Origin: Lentilactobacillus curieae
GTDB taxonomy: Bacteria; Bacillota; Bacilli; Lactobacillales; Lactobacillaceae
Direction of reading: 5' to 3'
Assembly (NCBI RefSeq): GCF_000785105.2
Contig: NZ_CP018906.1
Location: forward strand, 1,302,001-1,366,000
DNA: 64,000 bases
Shown here piece after piece: positions 12,902-62,145 of the stretch; the first letter of the stretch is position 1; every line of letters starts with the position of its first letter. The notes beneath the pieces are model-generated. The model saw only the letters and a list, made by a program, of their open reading frames with translations. It ran no database searches and had not been told where the DNA came from. The translations under genes and the position numbers were made by a program.

Positions 12902-13178
12902 ACAAAAAAAGCCTTTCGTCCCCATGTCAAGGGACGAAAGACTTTCGCGGTACCACCCAAGTTGCCTACAGAAAAAATAGGCCACCTCAATAAGAGCACT
13001 AACATGCTCCACCGAGGGTAACGTTCCGGTTTTACGTCTGCTCCTACTTGAGTCATTGCTGACTGGTTCAGACAGAAACTAGAAAGTGTTTTTCAGATAT
13101 TTCAAGATCTTATCGGTTTTCCACTATCCCCGACTCACTGCAAGTTTGAAATAACTTACTCGTCTTTCTTTGCGTTTT
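12902..13178 (-). promoter_or_regulatory. T-box leader sensing tRNA-Asn
   Basis: The minus strand carries the T-box core GGGTGGTACCGCG (complement of 12946-12958) followed by a terminator hairpin (AGTCTTTCGTCCC ... GGGACGAAAGGCT and T run, 12904-12942). Stem I can be closed by AGAAAG (complement 13164-13169) with CTTTCT (complement 13081-13086). The three bases just before the A that precedes this 3' strand are AAC (complement 13088-13090), an asparagine codon, as expected for the specifier. Uncharged tRNA-Asn would stabilise the antiterminator and switch on asnA-asnS. Confidence 0.92.
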
Positions 13179-13420
13179 TTAATGTTTCGAATTGACAAGT
13201 TAAAATTTAGCACAGTAATTTTTGGTTGTAAAGCATTAAAATTCAAAAAGTTTTTGCTGATGAATTAAATTTGAGTGTTTTTTTGAATCGTTTTTGGAAG
13301 ATAAACCCCTGTTACAAAAGGATTTTGTAGGGTGTGTAAAAAAGTTGAAAATTCGGCATTTTTTTATTTGTGTAAGTGCTAAACTGAATGTTAATCACAT
13401 AAAAGATTGGAGAACTTCTA

Positions 13421-34081: not shown

Positions 34082-34477
34082 GTGGAAGACAACATTACAA
34101 TGGGTGATGCATCGTTTGGCAAGATGATGTTTGTGCTCGACAAAAAAATTAATAAGAAAAATCATCGCGATTATCGGTACGAAAACGAAGAATTAATTGA
34201 GATTGCTGACGGCATTTGGGCAATGCCGGCTTACATGAAGGAAGATGACGATTTTAGTATCTTCTTTATCATTACTGAAATTGATGATGGGAGCACCGTT
34301 ATTGCTTTTTCAACGGGAACTCAAAGTTCTGAAGGATTTTCTCTTAGTGAGCCAATGATAACCGGTGAAGGACTAAACTTACTTAATGAACACAATGAAA
34401 CCAGAACCAAGAGCGTTCTGCACTTTTTGAACCAAATTTCAAAGGCAGCAGAAGGAAATTGGCGAATTGTAGAATAG
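34082..34477 (+). CDS. Hypothetical cytoplasmic protein
   Basis: A 131-residue acidic protein with no membrane helix or signal. It has a beta-rich middle (IADGIWAMPAYMKEDDDFSIFFIITEIDDGSTVIAFS). I do not recognise it. The start is GTG 34082, 9 bases after AAAGGA. It is followed after about 60 bases by a short HTH-like gene, probably in the same transcript. Confidence 0.7.
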   Translation: MEDNITMGDASFGKMMFVLDKKINKKNHRDYRYENEELIEIADGIWAMPAYMKEDDDFSIFFIITEIDDGSTVIAFSTGTQSSEGFSLSEPMITGEGLNLLNEHNETRTKSVLHFLNQISKAAEGNWRIVE

Positions 34478-34540: not shown

Positions 34541-34762
34541 ATGGAATTATCAATTAGTGAATTTGCACACCGATACGGCGTTGAAATGACCGCCGTAGAA
34601 ACATATGCGACCAATGGTTTGATTGGCCACATGACTGCCGAAAGCCAATCTGTCGTTTTAGACGATAATGATCGGTTTTGGGTAAACACCATTGATAGCT
34701 TTTTGGAAACTGGCACCCCCATTCAAGAATTAAAGACTGTCTTGAATCGTTGCCATCCATAG
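34541..34762 (+). CDS. Short MerR-like helix-turn-helix protein
   Basis: A 73-residue protein: LSISEFAHRYGVEMTAVETYATNGLIG resembles the first helix-turn-helix of MerR-type regulators, followed by DDNDRFWVNTIDSFLETGTPIQELKTVL, the usual helix after the wing. It lacks an effector domain, so it may act as a small DNA-binding protein. GGAGAAGAG precedes ATG 34541. It lies 330 bases upstream of a metal exporter gene; a regulatory link is possible but not shown. Confidence 0.65.
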   Translation: MELSISEFAHRYGVEMTAVETYATNGLIGHMTAESQSVVLDDNDRFWVNTIDSFLETGTPIQELKTVLNRCHP

Positions 34763-34899
34763 GGCATTTCGATTGTTAAATTAGTAACAGAATGCTAATC
34801 TAACAGTAGGGGGAACCTTACACCACTATTGTTAACTTAATTGGATTGTCGTTTGTAAACTAATGTTAGATTGTAACTTTAGATAACATGATAATGTTT

Positions 34900-35007
34900 T
34901 AGCGTGCGAGCAAAGCACTTTGAGTACTCAGCTTAAGCTGAGTCAGGATTCGATTATGAACGGAGTGTAATTTGATTAAAAAACAAGGTGTGGGGTTCCC
35001 TCCAAGG
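34900..35007 (+). ncRNA. Possible structured RNA or leader upstream of the CDF exporter
   Basis: The 333 bases between 34763 and 35095 hold no gene. They contain GTGC...GCAC (about 34903-34917), a perfect 18-base palindrome ACTCAGCTTAAGCTGAGT (about 34925-34942), then a GGTGTGGGGTTCCCTCC stretch, and end in a strong terminator at 35008-35040. This is the pattern of a riboswitch or small RNA. I could not match it to the manganese, NiCo, T-box or SRP consensus. It is either the leader of the exporter gene or a free small RNA. Confidence 0.45.
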
Positions 35008-35040
35008 AAGGCTAGGACTTTTTGGTCCTCGCCTTTTTTG
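35008..35040 (+). terminator. Terminator ahead of the CDF exporter
   Basis: AAGGC-T-AGGAC pairs with GTCCT-C-GCCTT, followed by T4-T6. It lies between the structured region and the exporter start at 35096. Confidence 0.85.
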
Positions 35041-35095
35041 TATGGAATTGTATGCACATCAATGAGATAATAATTGGTAGATTGGAGTGATTTAT

Positions 35096-36004
35096 ATGGC
35101 TGAACATAGTCACAATCACGAAGAACTATCTAGGGGGAGATTTTTTTCGGTTACTTTGCTTAATGTGTTAATCACGGTAGCCGAATTTATTGGTGGAGTT
35201 TTCTCCGGAAGTTTGTCGTTGATATCAGATGCGTTTCATAACCTAGGCGATAGTCTGTCCATTGTAATTAGTTATGTTGCCAGCAGAATTAGCCTGAAAA
35301 ACCAGGATGAAAATAATACTTATGGTTACAAACGGGCGCAGATCATTACTGCATTTTTAAATTCGATTGCACTGGTAATTATCTGTCTGGTTTTGATTGT
35401 CGAGGCGGTTAGAAGATTTTCACATCCAGAGCCAATTGATGGGCCAGTGATGTTGACCGTTGCAATTATTGGTTTAGTTGCCAATGCAGCATCGGCGTTG
35501 ATGCTGAATGCGGGAGCTAAGAATAATTTGAATATGCGGGCAACGTACCTACATATTATGAGCGATGCCCTTTCTTCGGTTGCCATCATTATTGGTGGGG
35601 TACTGATTGAACTTTTCCACTGGAACTGGGTTGATCCGTTAGTTACGATTTTAGTAGCTGGGTACATCGCATACGAAACCTGGCCAATTATTCGTCAGAC
35701 CAACCGAATTTTGATGGAAGGGGCACCAAAGATTGATTATGAGGGGATTAAAACAGATCTACTCGAAATCGATGGTGTCTACAATGTTCATCACGTTCAT
35801 GCGTGGTTGATTGATGAGCACAACATTGTTTTCTCTGCTCACGTTAATCTACACGATATGAAGATTAGCGAGGCTCAGCCAATATACCGGGAGATTGACC
35901 ACGTCTTGAAGACCAAATATGGTGTTTGTCACACTACAATTCAAGCAGAAGCTGATCGTGGTAAAGATGAAGATATCATTTATGATCAGGGTGAAGACAT
36001 TTAG
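35096..36004 (+). CDS. czcD: Cation diffusion facilitator, probable Zn/Cd exporter
   Basis: A 302-residue CDF antiporter. An N-terminal HSHNHEE metal-binding run precedes six membrane helices with the transport-site residues DAFHN (helix 2) and HIMSD (helix 5; the HxxxD half of the site), then a C-terminal cytoplasmic domain (HHVHAWLIDEHNIVFSAHVNLHD). The HxxxD site fits zinc or cadmium rather than manganese. GGAGTGAT precedes ATG 35096; the GTG at 35087 is rejected. The terminator just upstream suggests regulated readthrough. Confidence 0.88.
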   Translation: MAEHSHNHEELSRGRFFSVTLLNVLITVAEFIGGVFSGSLSLISDAFHNLGDSLSIVISYVASRISLKNQDENNTYGYKRAQIITAFLNSIALVIICLVLIVEAVRRFSHPEPIDGPVMLTVAIIGLVANAASALMLNAGAKNNLNMRATYLHIMSDALSSVAIIIGGVLIELFHWNWVDPLVTILVAGYIAYETWPIIRQTNRILMEGAPKIDYEGIKTDLLEIDGVYNVHHVHAWLIDEHNIVFSAHVNLHDMKISEAQPIYREIDHVLKTKYGVCHTTIQAEADRGKDEDIIYDQGEDI

Positions 36005-40807: not shown

Positions 40808-40996
40808 TAATATTCGAAGTAGAGGCGCGTTTATTAAGAGTATTTTTCAGGAACTTGAACAGAAGTGATGACTGGAATTGAAAGGGATAATCGCCGAAAT
40901 TGCTAATTGCGTTTCCAATTAGTGGTTGGGTCTTAACTTAATAAGTTAAGGACTGTCGTGGTGTTTGCTACGGAGTGCTATCAAGATATTGAAACC
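40808..40996 (+). promoter_or_regulatory. Lysine riboswitch (L box)
   Basis: Core segments of the L-box are visible in order: GTAGAGGCGCG, TTAAGAGTATT, CAGAAGTGATGACTGGAA, TGAAAGGGATAATCGCCGAA, GGTTGGGTCTTA, and GACTGTCGTGGTGTTTGCTACGGAGTGCTATC. The P1 helix forms between 40808-40820 and the 3' end near 40985-40996. The 3' segment AAGATATTGAA can alternatively pair with TTCAATATTCTT inside the terminator, making an antiterminator. Lysine binding keeps P1 and lets the terminator form, so the permease is off when lysine is plentiful. Confidence 0.95.
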
Positions 40997-46265: not shown

Positions 46266-46315
46266 GTAATAGTTGCATTGAGGATGTCTCTATCATCCAT
46301 TTCTAAATGTACCAT

Positions 46316-46388
46316 GGAGGATTAGCTCAGCTGGGAGAGCATCTGCCTTACAAGCAGGAGGTCACAGGTTCGATCCCTGTATCCTCCA
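46316..46388 (+). tRNA. tRNA-Val(TAC)
   Basis: 73-base cloverleaf; the anticodon loop CTTACAA gives anticodon TAC. The acceptor stem GGAGGAT pairs with ATCCTCC. The CCA end is not encoded. Confidence 0.96.
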
Positions 46389-46391
46389 TAT

Positions 46392-46464
46392 GAGCCGTTA
46401 GCTCAGTTGGTAGAGCATCTGACTTTTAATCAGAGGGTCGGCAGTTCGAGACTGCCACGGCTCA
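46392..46464 (+). tRNA. tRNA-Lys(TTT)
   Basis: 73-base cloverleaf; acceptor GAGCCGT / ACGGCTC, anticodon loop CTTTTAA, anticodon TTT, T arm GGCAG-TTCGAGA-CTGCC. Confidence 0.96.
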
Positions 46465-46485
46465 TCGCCAGTTTTTCGAAGTTTT

Positions 46486-46567
46486 GCGGGCGTGGCGGAA
46501 CTGGCAGACGCGCTAGATTTAGGTTCTAGTGTCTATTGACGTGGGGGTTCGAATCCCTTCGCCCGCA
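46486..46567 (+). tRNA. tRNA-Leu(TAG)
   Basis: 82-base tRNA with a long variable arm (TGTCTATTGACGT). The anticodon stem CTAGA / TCTAG holds loop TTTAGGT, anticodon TAG. Confidence 0.95.
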
Positions 46568-46580
46568 GTTGTTCCAATAT

Positions 46581-46654
46581 GCCGACTTAGCTCAGTTGGT
46601 TAGAGCGCTTCACTAGTAATGAAGAGGTCGGGCGTTCGAATCGTCTAGTCGGCA
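46581..46654 (+). tRNA. tRNA-Thr(AGT)
   Basis: 74-base cloverleaf; anticodon stem CTTCA / TGAAG, loop CTAGTAA, anticodon AGT. Confidence 0.93.
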
Positions 46655-46659
46655 CTTTT

Positions 46660-46731
46660 GCGGAAGTAGTTCAGTGGTAGAACATCACCTTGCCATGGTG
46701 GGGGTCGCGGGTTCGAATCCCGTCTTCCGCT
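46660..46731 (+). tRNA. tRNA-Gly(GCC)
   Basis: 72-base cloverleaf; acceptor GCGGAAG / CTTCCGC, loop TTGCCAT, anticodon GCC. Confidence 0.95.
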
Positions 46732-46786
46732 TCCATCTTCGGATGGGAGTAGCAAGTGTTACTCGTTACAACTTAATATTTATTTT

Positions 46787-46860
46787 GCACCCATAGCGCA
46801 ACTGGATAGAGTGTCTGACTACGAATCAGAAGGTTGTAGGTTCGACTCCTACTGGGTGCA
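46787..46860 (+). tRNA. tRNA-Arg(ACG)
   Basis: 74-base cloverleaf; anticodon stem TCTGA / TCAGA, loop CTACGAA, anticodon ACG (read as ICG after deamination). Confidence 0.95.
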
Positions 46861-46888
46861 TTTTTTATGCCGTTTTATCGGTATATTT

Positions 46889-46962
46889 CGGGAAGTAGCT
46901 CAGCTTGGTAGAGCACCTGGTTTGGGACCAGGGGGTCGCAGGTTCGAATCCTGTCTTCCCGA
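46889..46962 (+). tRNA. tRNA-Pro(TGG)
   Basis: 74-base cloverleaf; acceptor CGGGAAG / CTTCCCG, anticodon stem CCTGG / CCAGG, loop TTTGGGA, anticodon TGG. Nearly the same body as the tRNA-Pro at 47116. Confidence 0.95.
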
Positions 46963-47115
46963 TAGTCAATTACATAGCGTCACCAAGATCGTTGGACATG
47001 AATTAGTTAATTCATGTCCTTTTCTTATCCACGATTGTTTAGCCTTGTCTGACCTTGTTTTAGTTATTAACATTTGTGCTATATTATATAGATAGTAATT
47101 AAATATGCACATTAT

Positions 47116-47189
47116 CGGGAAGTAGCTCAGCTTGGTAGAGCACTACGTTCGGGACGTAGGGGTCGCAAGTTCAAATCTTGTTTTCCCGA
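47116..47189 (+). tRNA. tRNA-Pro(CGG)
   Basis: 74-base cloverleaf; anticodon stem CTACG / CGTAG, loop TTCGGGA, anticodon CGG. The body matches the tRNA-Pro(TGG) 150 bases upstream except the anticodon arm and a compensated change in the T arm (GCAAG-TTCAAAT-CTTGT). It is separated from the main cluster by about 150 bases. Confidence 0.92.
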
Positions 47190-47213
47190 TTTTTTTGTAT
47201 CAAGAGATATTAA

Positions 47214-62004: not shown

Positions 62005-62145
62005 TAATTGTTTTTACGGGTAAGTATGCTCAAAAAATGATACAAGATAGCTTTGATGTGAAAGGTTGCGACACACCCGGATGCTTTGCCATGGGTTTGG
62101 CGGTAATTTTCACGGAGTTAGTCATATTTTTAAAATAGACGAAGG
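62005..62145 (+). ncRNA. 5' leader of the S10 operon
   Basis: About 150 bases between the promoter and rpsJ include the stretch AAGGTTGCGACACACCCGG followed by TTTGCC...TTTGGCGG and TCACGGAGTTAGTC. Such a leader is usually kept before rpsJ in lactobacilli and enterococci; it may fold for autogenous control by a ribosomal protein. An open frame through it has no ribosome site. Confidence 0.5.

Follow-up and report, generated by a model that had tools for sequence, protein, structure and literature searches.

What lies between the gene of a MerR-like protein and that of a CDF exporter at this Lentilactobacillus curieae locus: a leader through which the exporter is controlled, or an RNA with a gene of its own? 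The initial annotation of the 64,000-nucleotide stretch of DNA analysed here (hereafter the window, to which positions refer unless the locus of a relative is named) had placed there a structured RNA region, and had considered both a metal-sensing riboswitch and a free small RNA such as 6S or Lacto-usp RNA. The region is indeed strongly folded: positions 34763-35042 reach -101.7 kcal/mol, against a mean of -63.3 (sd 4.9) for shuffled sequences (z = -7.8, with 0 of 200 shuffles equal). The reverse strand, too, is more strongly folded than its shuffles (z = -5.6, 0 of 200 equal), which is expected for the complement of a rod, and we assigned the RNA to the plus strand because of the orientation of its promoter and terminator.

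The region, bounded by the stop codon of the MerR-like protein (34762) and the start codon of the exporter (35096), looks like a full small-RNA gene, equipped with a promoter and a terminator of its own (Table 1). The 18-base palindrome and the strong terminator reported ahead of the exporter are both present, the latter ending 56 nt before the exporter's start codon, and no plus-strand ORF of at least 40 aa starts within 34763-35086. From the position of the -10 element, the transcript would start around 34808. The 21 Lentilactobacillus loci that were aligned also show a -35 resembling TTGTTA together with an extended -10, for the most part TGATATTCT, and -10 elements similar to that of the window are found in Secundilactobacillus and Levilactobacillus loci too; the window's promoter was absent from the output of a generic promoter scan. 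The first of the annotated hairpins (34772-34807) falls within this promoter, ahead of the point where the transcript likely begins, and so probably does not belong to the RNA. Judged by sequence alone, a promoter and terminator of its own, the mark of a small-RNA gene, are kept in relatives; the ends, transcription and abundance of the RNA are inferred.

Table 1. Features of the RNA gene and of the two genes that flank it (window positions).
Feature	Position	Strand	Remarks
MerR-like HTH protein, 73 aa	34541-34762	+	Outside the RNA, upstream; Pfam MerR_1, E 6e-5
Promoter	34773-34801	+	-35 TTGTTA (34773-34778), 17-nt spacer, extended -10 TGCTAATCT (34793-34801); read from sequence
Structured non-coding RNA, about 232 nt, very probably stand-alone	34808-35039	+	5' end inferred from the -10 element, 3' end from the terminator
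P1 closing stem, 5' arm	34809-34833	+	Pairs with 34982-35002
P2 (34837-34848) and P3 (34849-34858), 5' strands	34837-34858	+	
Hairpin P4	34860-34882	+	Drawn differently in the species' own fold and in the consensus
Hairpin P5, GUGC/GCAC	34904-34918	+	GCGC/GCGC or GCGU/ACGC in other genera
Hairpin P6	34920-34953	+	Bears the 18-base palindrome (34926-34943)
P3 (34954-34963) and P2 (34968-34979), 3' strands	34954-34979	+	
P1 closing stem, 3' arm	34982-35002	+	
Intrinsic terminator, strong	35004-35039	+	
CDF exporter	35096-36004	+	Outside the RNA, downstream; Pfam Cation_efflux; above the NCBIfam cut-off for the CDF superfamily, under that for ZitB-like

In the predicted fold, the closing stem P1 (16 + 5 bp) is followed by P2 and P3 and then by a junction of the hairpins P4, P5 and P6; a further 5-bp hairpin (34885-34898) is extra in the window's fold and missing from the consensus. 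The palindrome, ACTCAGCTTAAGCTGAGT, is the sole perfect 18-mer palindrome of the window and forms the tip of the conserved hairpin P6. Relatives keep the pairing and lose the palindromic loop, which makes a DNA operator at this place unlikely. For Levilactobacillus and Lactiplantibacillus loci (such as L134 and L189, respectively), RNAalifold prefers to pair the 5' strand of P5 with a stretch further upstream, so that the head may have two states there.

Does the RNA belong to a known family? None of the 4227 families of Rfam 15 matched the region at gathering level, nor did an E-value search yield a gathering-level match in the region, in 18 Lentilactobacillus loci or in nine Secundilactobacillus and Lactiplantibacillus loci. 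The manganese and NiCo riboswitch models were not among the region's matches at E <= 10, in agreement with the annotation, to which neither motif had been evident. The 6S model (RF00013) had no match at E <= 10 in 34600-35200, and the best that it reaches anywhere in the genome is 12.7 bits (E 3), away from the RNA. Weak matches at the terminator hairpin to ar35 (19.5 bits in the window and 23.9 in L011, gathering score 45), and others to Leu_leader (23.1 bits in L010 and 22.7 in L012, gathering score 50), lie far below gathering and were taken as chance matches of a hairpin followed by a T-run; across the nine Secundilactobacillus and Lactiplantibacillus loci no Rfam family recurs on the RNA. 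Elsewhere in the window, a lysine riboswitch (40812-40988), a T-box leader (12927-13181) and, borderline, an S10-Clostridia leader (62045-62142) score over gathering, and eight tRNA genes are clustered at 46315-47190.

We then asked how widely the RNA occurs. BLAST with the region gave matches in 22 of 60 genomes: 21 from Lentilactobacillus, the window's own included, and a short one in G054, over the terminator. The alignment of the 21 Lentilactobacillus loci (A2), in which the RNA core has a mean column identity of 76%, served to build the core model R1; the MerR-like protein upstream, where found, is 21-35% identical to the window's, the two nearest relatives excepted. R1 is matched in 24 of 24 Lentilactobacillus genomes (E 9.6e-13 or better), with one strong copy apiece. 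Two second matches in the genus (L050 and L051; E 0.016 and 0.046) span 61-65 nt, against the 149 positions of the model; they lie outside ORFs of 60 aa, and were neither counted nor aligned. Across the family, R1 matched 28 of 301 genomes, or 25 once three matches inside ORFs were discarded (L062, L063 in g35 and L064 in g54), and added Secundilactobacillus. R2, which covers the P5-P6 part and was built from 34 sequences, matched 46 of 397 genomes and added Lactiplantibacillus. We rejected its matches in G269 (overlapping ORFs), G368 (coding), G301 (the place of L063, in an ORF) and G152 (intergenic, with no GCGC-type P5).

R3, built from 58 sequences and used at E <= 0.01, matched 78 of 330 genomes of the family, of which 76 were kept: 18 from Lentilactobacillus, 17 from Levilactobacillus, 15 from Secundilactobacillus, 16 from Lactiplantibacillus, and five each from the group g41 and Pediococcus. 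The remaining two (L240 and L241, g33) are in ORFs and were dropped as coding. Inspection covered all ten weak matches, those of g41 and Pediococcus, and part of the 66 that are strong (E 3.7e-9 or better). At three accepted places (L101, L105 and L234) the RNA overlaps an ORF called mechanically on the other strand. In Lactiplantibacillus, R3 was matched in 21 of 21 genomes. Searches of more than 40 genomes used stricter filters and scored few candidates, so that their counts are lower bounds. Counting convincing matches, each carrier has one copy, both in Lentilactobacillus and in five or more other groups of Lactobacillaceae; phage and plasmid records gave no match to the RNA at the DNA level. 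In the order, R2 matched four of 246 genomes outside Lentilactobacillus, one of them real (G083, a Lactiplantibacillus), two coding (G052 and G437) and one an intergenic 52-nt match with no hairpins (G050). R3 gave 11 such matches among 178, of which all but G519, G505 and G478 were inspected. G052 and G050, already met with R2, are among them; the other six (L244-L249) each lie in an ORF, and the four of these that were aligned have a broken P6 or none. An R3 E-value near 0.002 is therefore no proof by itself.

A further sample consisted of 80 named loci with an MntR-type gene, 59 of which match R3 (E 3.1e-12 or better), always upstream of the gene and on its strand. Fifteen of these 59 were outside the R3 training set, though with close relatives inside it. 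At that place and sensitivity, the other 21 gave no match: three loci of Levilactobacillus (L145, L153 and L160), one of Secundilactobacillus near a contig end (L119), one of Lactobacillus sp. (L169), two of Apilactobacillus, one of Philodulcilactobacillus, six of Ligilactobacillus, three of Limosilactobacillus, three of Liquorilactobacillus, and one of a Pediococcus whose copy of the RNA is elsewhere (L235).

Conservation of the hairpins among these relatives goes beyond shared sequence, with P5 and P6 covarying across genera. In a MAFFT alignment of 34 sequences (29 distinct), 96.3% of their cells are paired, against 85.2% after shuffling, and 61 cells are double-changed, against 19.2 (0 of 500 shuffles as high), while 326 of 500 shuffles reach as many pair types. 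An alignment of 64 distinct sequences from six genera, which was fitted by the covariance model and is thus biased towards structure, agrees with it: 96.8% of P5/P6 cells are paired (72.7% shuffled), 215 are double-changed (66.9 shuffled), and the covariation score is 0.746 (0.259 shuffled), with 0 of 500 shuffles as high in each case. In its count of pairs that show double changes, this alignment does not exceed the shuffles (118 of 500 as high), and neither does another that was fitted by the model and shares its bias (306 of 500). When the partners are slid by one to three columns in the 64 sequences, pairing falls to 23-41%. P5 is paired in 100% of cells, with changes on both sides in two of its four pairs; P6 is paired in 95.2% of cells in the 64 sequences, with changes on both sides in all eight modelled pairs. 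Pediococcus and g41 were outside the R3 training set, yet both hairpins form there, and P5 of Pediococcus includes a pair type unique in the alignment.

The closing stem was assessed by letting each 5' arm of P1 pair with its own 3' arm or with those of other loci. Own partners give the stronger duplex on average in Lentilactobacillus (-28.7 against -18.4 kcal/mol for swapped partners, 21 loci), Levilactobacillus (-20.1 against -15.5; 19 of 26 loci with a match), Secundilactobacillus (-27.6 against -21.2; 12 of 13) and Lactiplantibacillus or like it (-29.1 against -25.5; 7 of 8), a simple rule having set the limits of the arms outside Lentilactobacillus. Locus by locus, an arm's own partner ranks first in just 11 of 21, 6 of 19, 4 of 12 and 3 of 7 cases, respectively, with close relatives among the partners. 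The closing stem is loose in sequence and keeps its pairing, on average, in four genera. Outside the helices, an A and a G right after P6 and a C and a G a few bases further are invariant in all 64 distinct sequences, and the G and the A before P6 are each present in 62. The GA before P6 pairs with a UC after P6 in the window's own fold, and so need not be a binding site.

The genes around the RNA vary. In five of the 21 Lentilactobacillus loci (L007, L010, L011, L012 and L014) the exporter starts more than 1.1 kb past the end of the upstream gene; in L012 a Flavodoxin_2/azoreductase-like gene separates it from the RNA, and L007 has an ORF whose start resembles that gene. A Secundilactobacillus locus (L107) has an acetyltransferase gene in between. 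At all four Lactiplantibacillus loci inspected, no exporter match lies within 6.5-7 kb, and the RNA is preceded by a MerR-type ORF and followed by a convergent ORF and then by a DtxR/MntR-type ORF (neighbour domains were checked in L099 only). Downstream of the RNA are RNase Y in Pediococcus (L235) and a GH2 beta-galactosidase-type gene in g41 (L231). Upstream, Lentilactobacillus shares an acetyltransferase gene and that of a 131-aa protein with Pediococcus and with one locus of Secundilactobacillus (L102); both are missing at the Lactiplantibacillus and g41 loci inspected. The 131-aa protein (34082-34477 in the window), which is thus conserved beside the RNA in three genera, has no Pfam or NCBIfam match. 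Near the same locus in Lactiplantibacillus there is also a cspA-thermoregulator-like leader (L098 1448-1862, L099 1515-1901, L100 1736-2105 and L101 5068-5452), which scores over gathering in one of the four loci. As for the exporter, in some relatives it is preceded by a palindrome of its own (CCTAAACATTTTGTTTAGG in L010, with one mismatch in L013) and followed by a DtxR/MntR-type gene, of the iron/manganese-repressor type, with a FeoA domain (L009 2816-3205 and L019 2577-3068; domains scanned in L107 and L099). This palindrome and the gene that follows suggest that the exporter is under protein control in some relatives. In the window, ThrE genes and not a DtxR/MntR-type gene come after the exporter.

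These observations bear on what the RNA is. A metal-sensing riboswitch or attenuator in the exporter's leader, the reading that the annotation had found natural, would account for the place of the RNA, which in the window immediately precedes the exporter, and for its terminator, which could serve as expression platform. We consider it highly improbable: a leader keeps a constant position before one gene or pathway, whereas five other downstream neighbours were found here, with genes intervening in L012 and L107, distant exporters in five Lentilactobacillus loci, no exporter match within 6.5-7 kb at the four Lactiplantibacillus loci inspected, and, in Pediococcus and g41, RNase Y or a GH2 beta-galactosidase in its stead. 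The exporter of some relatives has moreover the palindrome and repressor-type gene just described, and the region matches no metal riboswitch of Rfam. Because the downstream gene varies both between and within genera, the RNA is not the exporter's leader, and it very probably represents a free-standing RNA family. The annotation's other proposal, a free small RNA, is thereby supported, though not its identity with 6S or Lacto-usp RNA. The Lacto-usp model (RF01710) reached its cut-off in none of 41 genomes, 24 of them from the genus, with one weak match in G016 (E 0.87). A variant of 6S RNA, or a stand-in for it that binds RNA polymerase, would fit the paired ends and roughly the size of the RNA. 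In lactic acid bacteria 6S is preceded by rarA and in most cases followed by uspA (PMC8414754), whereas the RNA is flanked by the MerR-like and exporter genes; and where 6S is a rod with a large 5' central bulge and an apical stem, the RNA has a predicted hairpin junction above P1-P3. RF00013 does not match the RNA. It is matched in 139 of 397 genomes of the family at E <= 0.1 (55 over cut-off), and 57 of the 58 accepted R3 carriers outside Lentilactobacillus hold such a match elsewhere (E 3.6e-5 or better, often below cut-off; in G293, for example, 6S is at 2164206 and the RNA at 2400478), G153 being the lone exception. No Lentilactobacillus is among the 139, at least 20 of the genus having been searched, and in the present genome rarA, a 101-aa ORF and a uspA-like ORF are consecutive, with no room for 6S and no 6S match at that place (L199 600-1100). 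This lack of 6S matches in Lentilactobacillus is the only reason to keep the stand-in as a bold reading, which on the whole we find very unlikely. To a short peptide gene or a dual-function RNA we give practically no weight: stop-free stretches of 24-55 codons occur in the 21 loci, but the region has no plus-strand ORF of 40 aa, relatives differ by single-base length changes, and the helices covary as RNA.

How might such an RNA act? Sequence comparison yields an RNA with its own promoter-like and terminator elements, a covarying closing stem and a P4-P6 head around a junction. It would be transcribed separately, its closing stem would protect and present the hairpin head, and the head would have a trans-acting role in which it most likely binds a protein or an RNP. 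We lean towards this reading as a whole, i.e., a stand-alone RNA of a family missing from Rfam that acts in trans, most likely through a protein or RNP. We lean to protein binding because the helices drift while a few letters beside P6 stay; taken by itself as the mode of action it is a tentative proposal, since the invariant letters are few and two of them may pair. Its main rival is base pairing with mRNAs: the RNA would be a trans-acting antisense sRNA whose unpaired bases alter translation or decay, with the stem and terminator providing stability. Its size, promoter-like element, terminator and intergenic place are typical of ordinary sRNAs, and Lentilactobacillus conserves two stretches, UUUGAG and AGUUCC, that are unpaired in the consensus. 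Both stretches are short, however, and other genera do not keep them as such; the fold, moreover, is elaborate, and we regard antisense action as rather unlikely. A more ambitious version of the preferred protein- or RNP-binding reading, in which the RNA is a new, junction-headed class of housekeeping RNP RNA of Lactobacillaceae, kept throughout the sampled genomes of two genera, that serves a core machine (of transcription, decay or translation) and perhaps replaces 6S in Lentilactobacillus, is unlikely.

We call this a new RNA family, of the stand-alone structured non-coding kind, although an earlier description may exist. Among the matches listed in searches of the open-access literature on small and structured RNAs of lactic acid bacteria or of their order, no title or start of abstract describes it, and the string "lactobacill" is absent from the main text of three structured-RNA surveys (PMC11109978, PMC8632094 and PMC6429828). 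The RNA is present throughout the genomes searched in two genera (24 of 24 and 21 of 21) and in at least four further groups, Levilactobacillus and Pediococcus among them, yet matches no tested family. With such a distribution, it probably does something that the cell needs. The carrier genera include Lactiplantibacillus plantarum and Levilactobacillus brevis, which are food-grade organisms and tractable in the laboratory. The analysis also removes a false lead, in that the exporter here is not under a conserved riboswitch.

How does the RNA compare with known systems? Manganese (yybP-ykoY) and NiCo riboswitches occur before metal exporters, whereas the present RNA is not tied to the exporter and matches neither model. 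With 6S it shares being stand-alone, in one copy, with paired ends, and widespread in lactic acid bacteria; it differs in its locus, in the lack of a covariance-model match and in having a hairpin junction where 6S has a bulged rod. Lacto-usp RNA is listed for Lactobacillales (PMC2864571). Its family model has 90 positions, and differs from the present RNA also in having no match over cut-off in the 41 genomes. Orphan ornate RNAs of bacteria, raiA among them, have an elaborate conserved fold, are non-coding and have a function that is not evident from their neighbours; most are larger. GOLLD, ROOL and OLE are orphan ornate RNAs that came from comparative genomics (PMC12286853). The present RNA has no Rfam match to any of them, and resembles them in its elaborate, conserved and non-coding fold.
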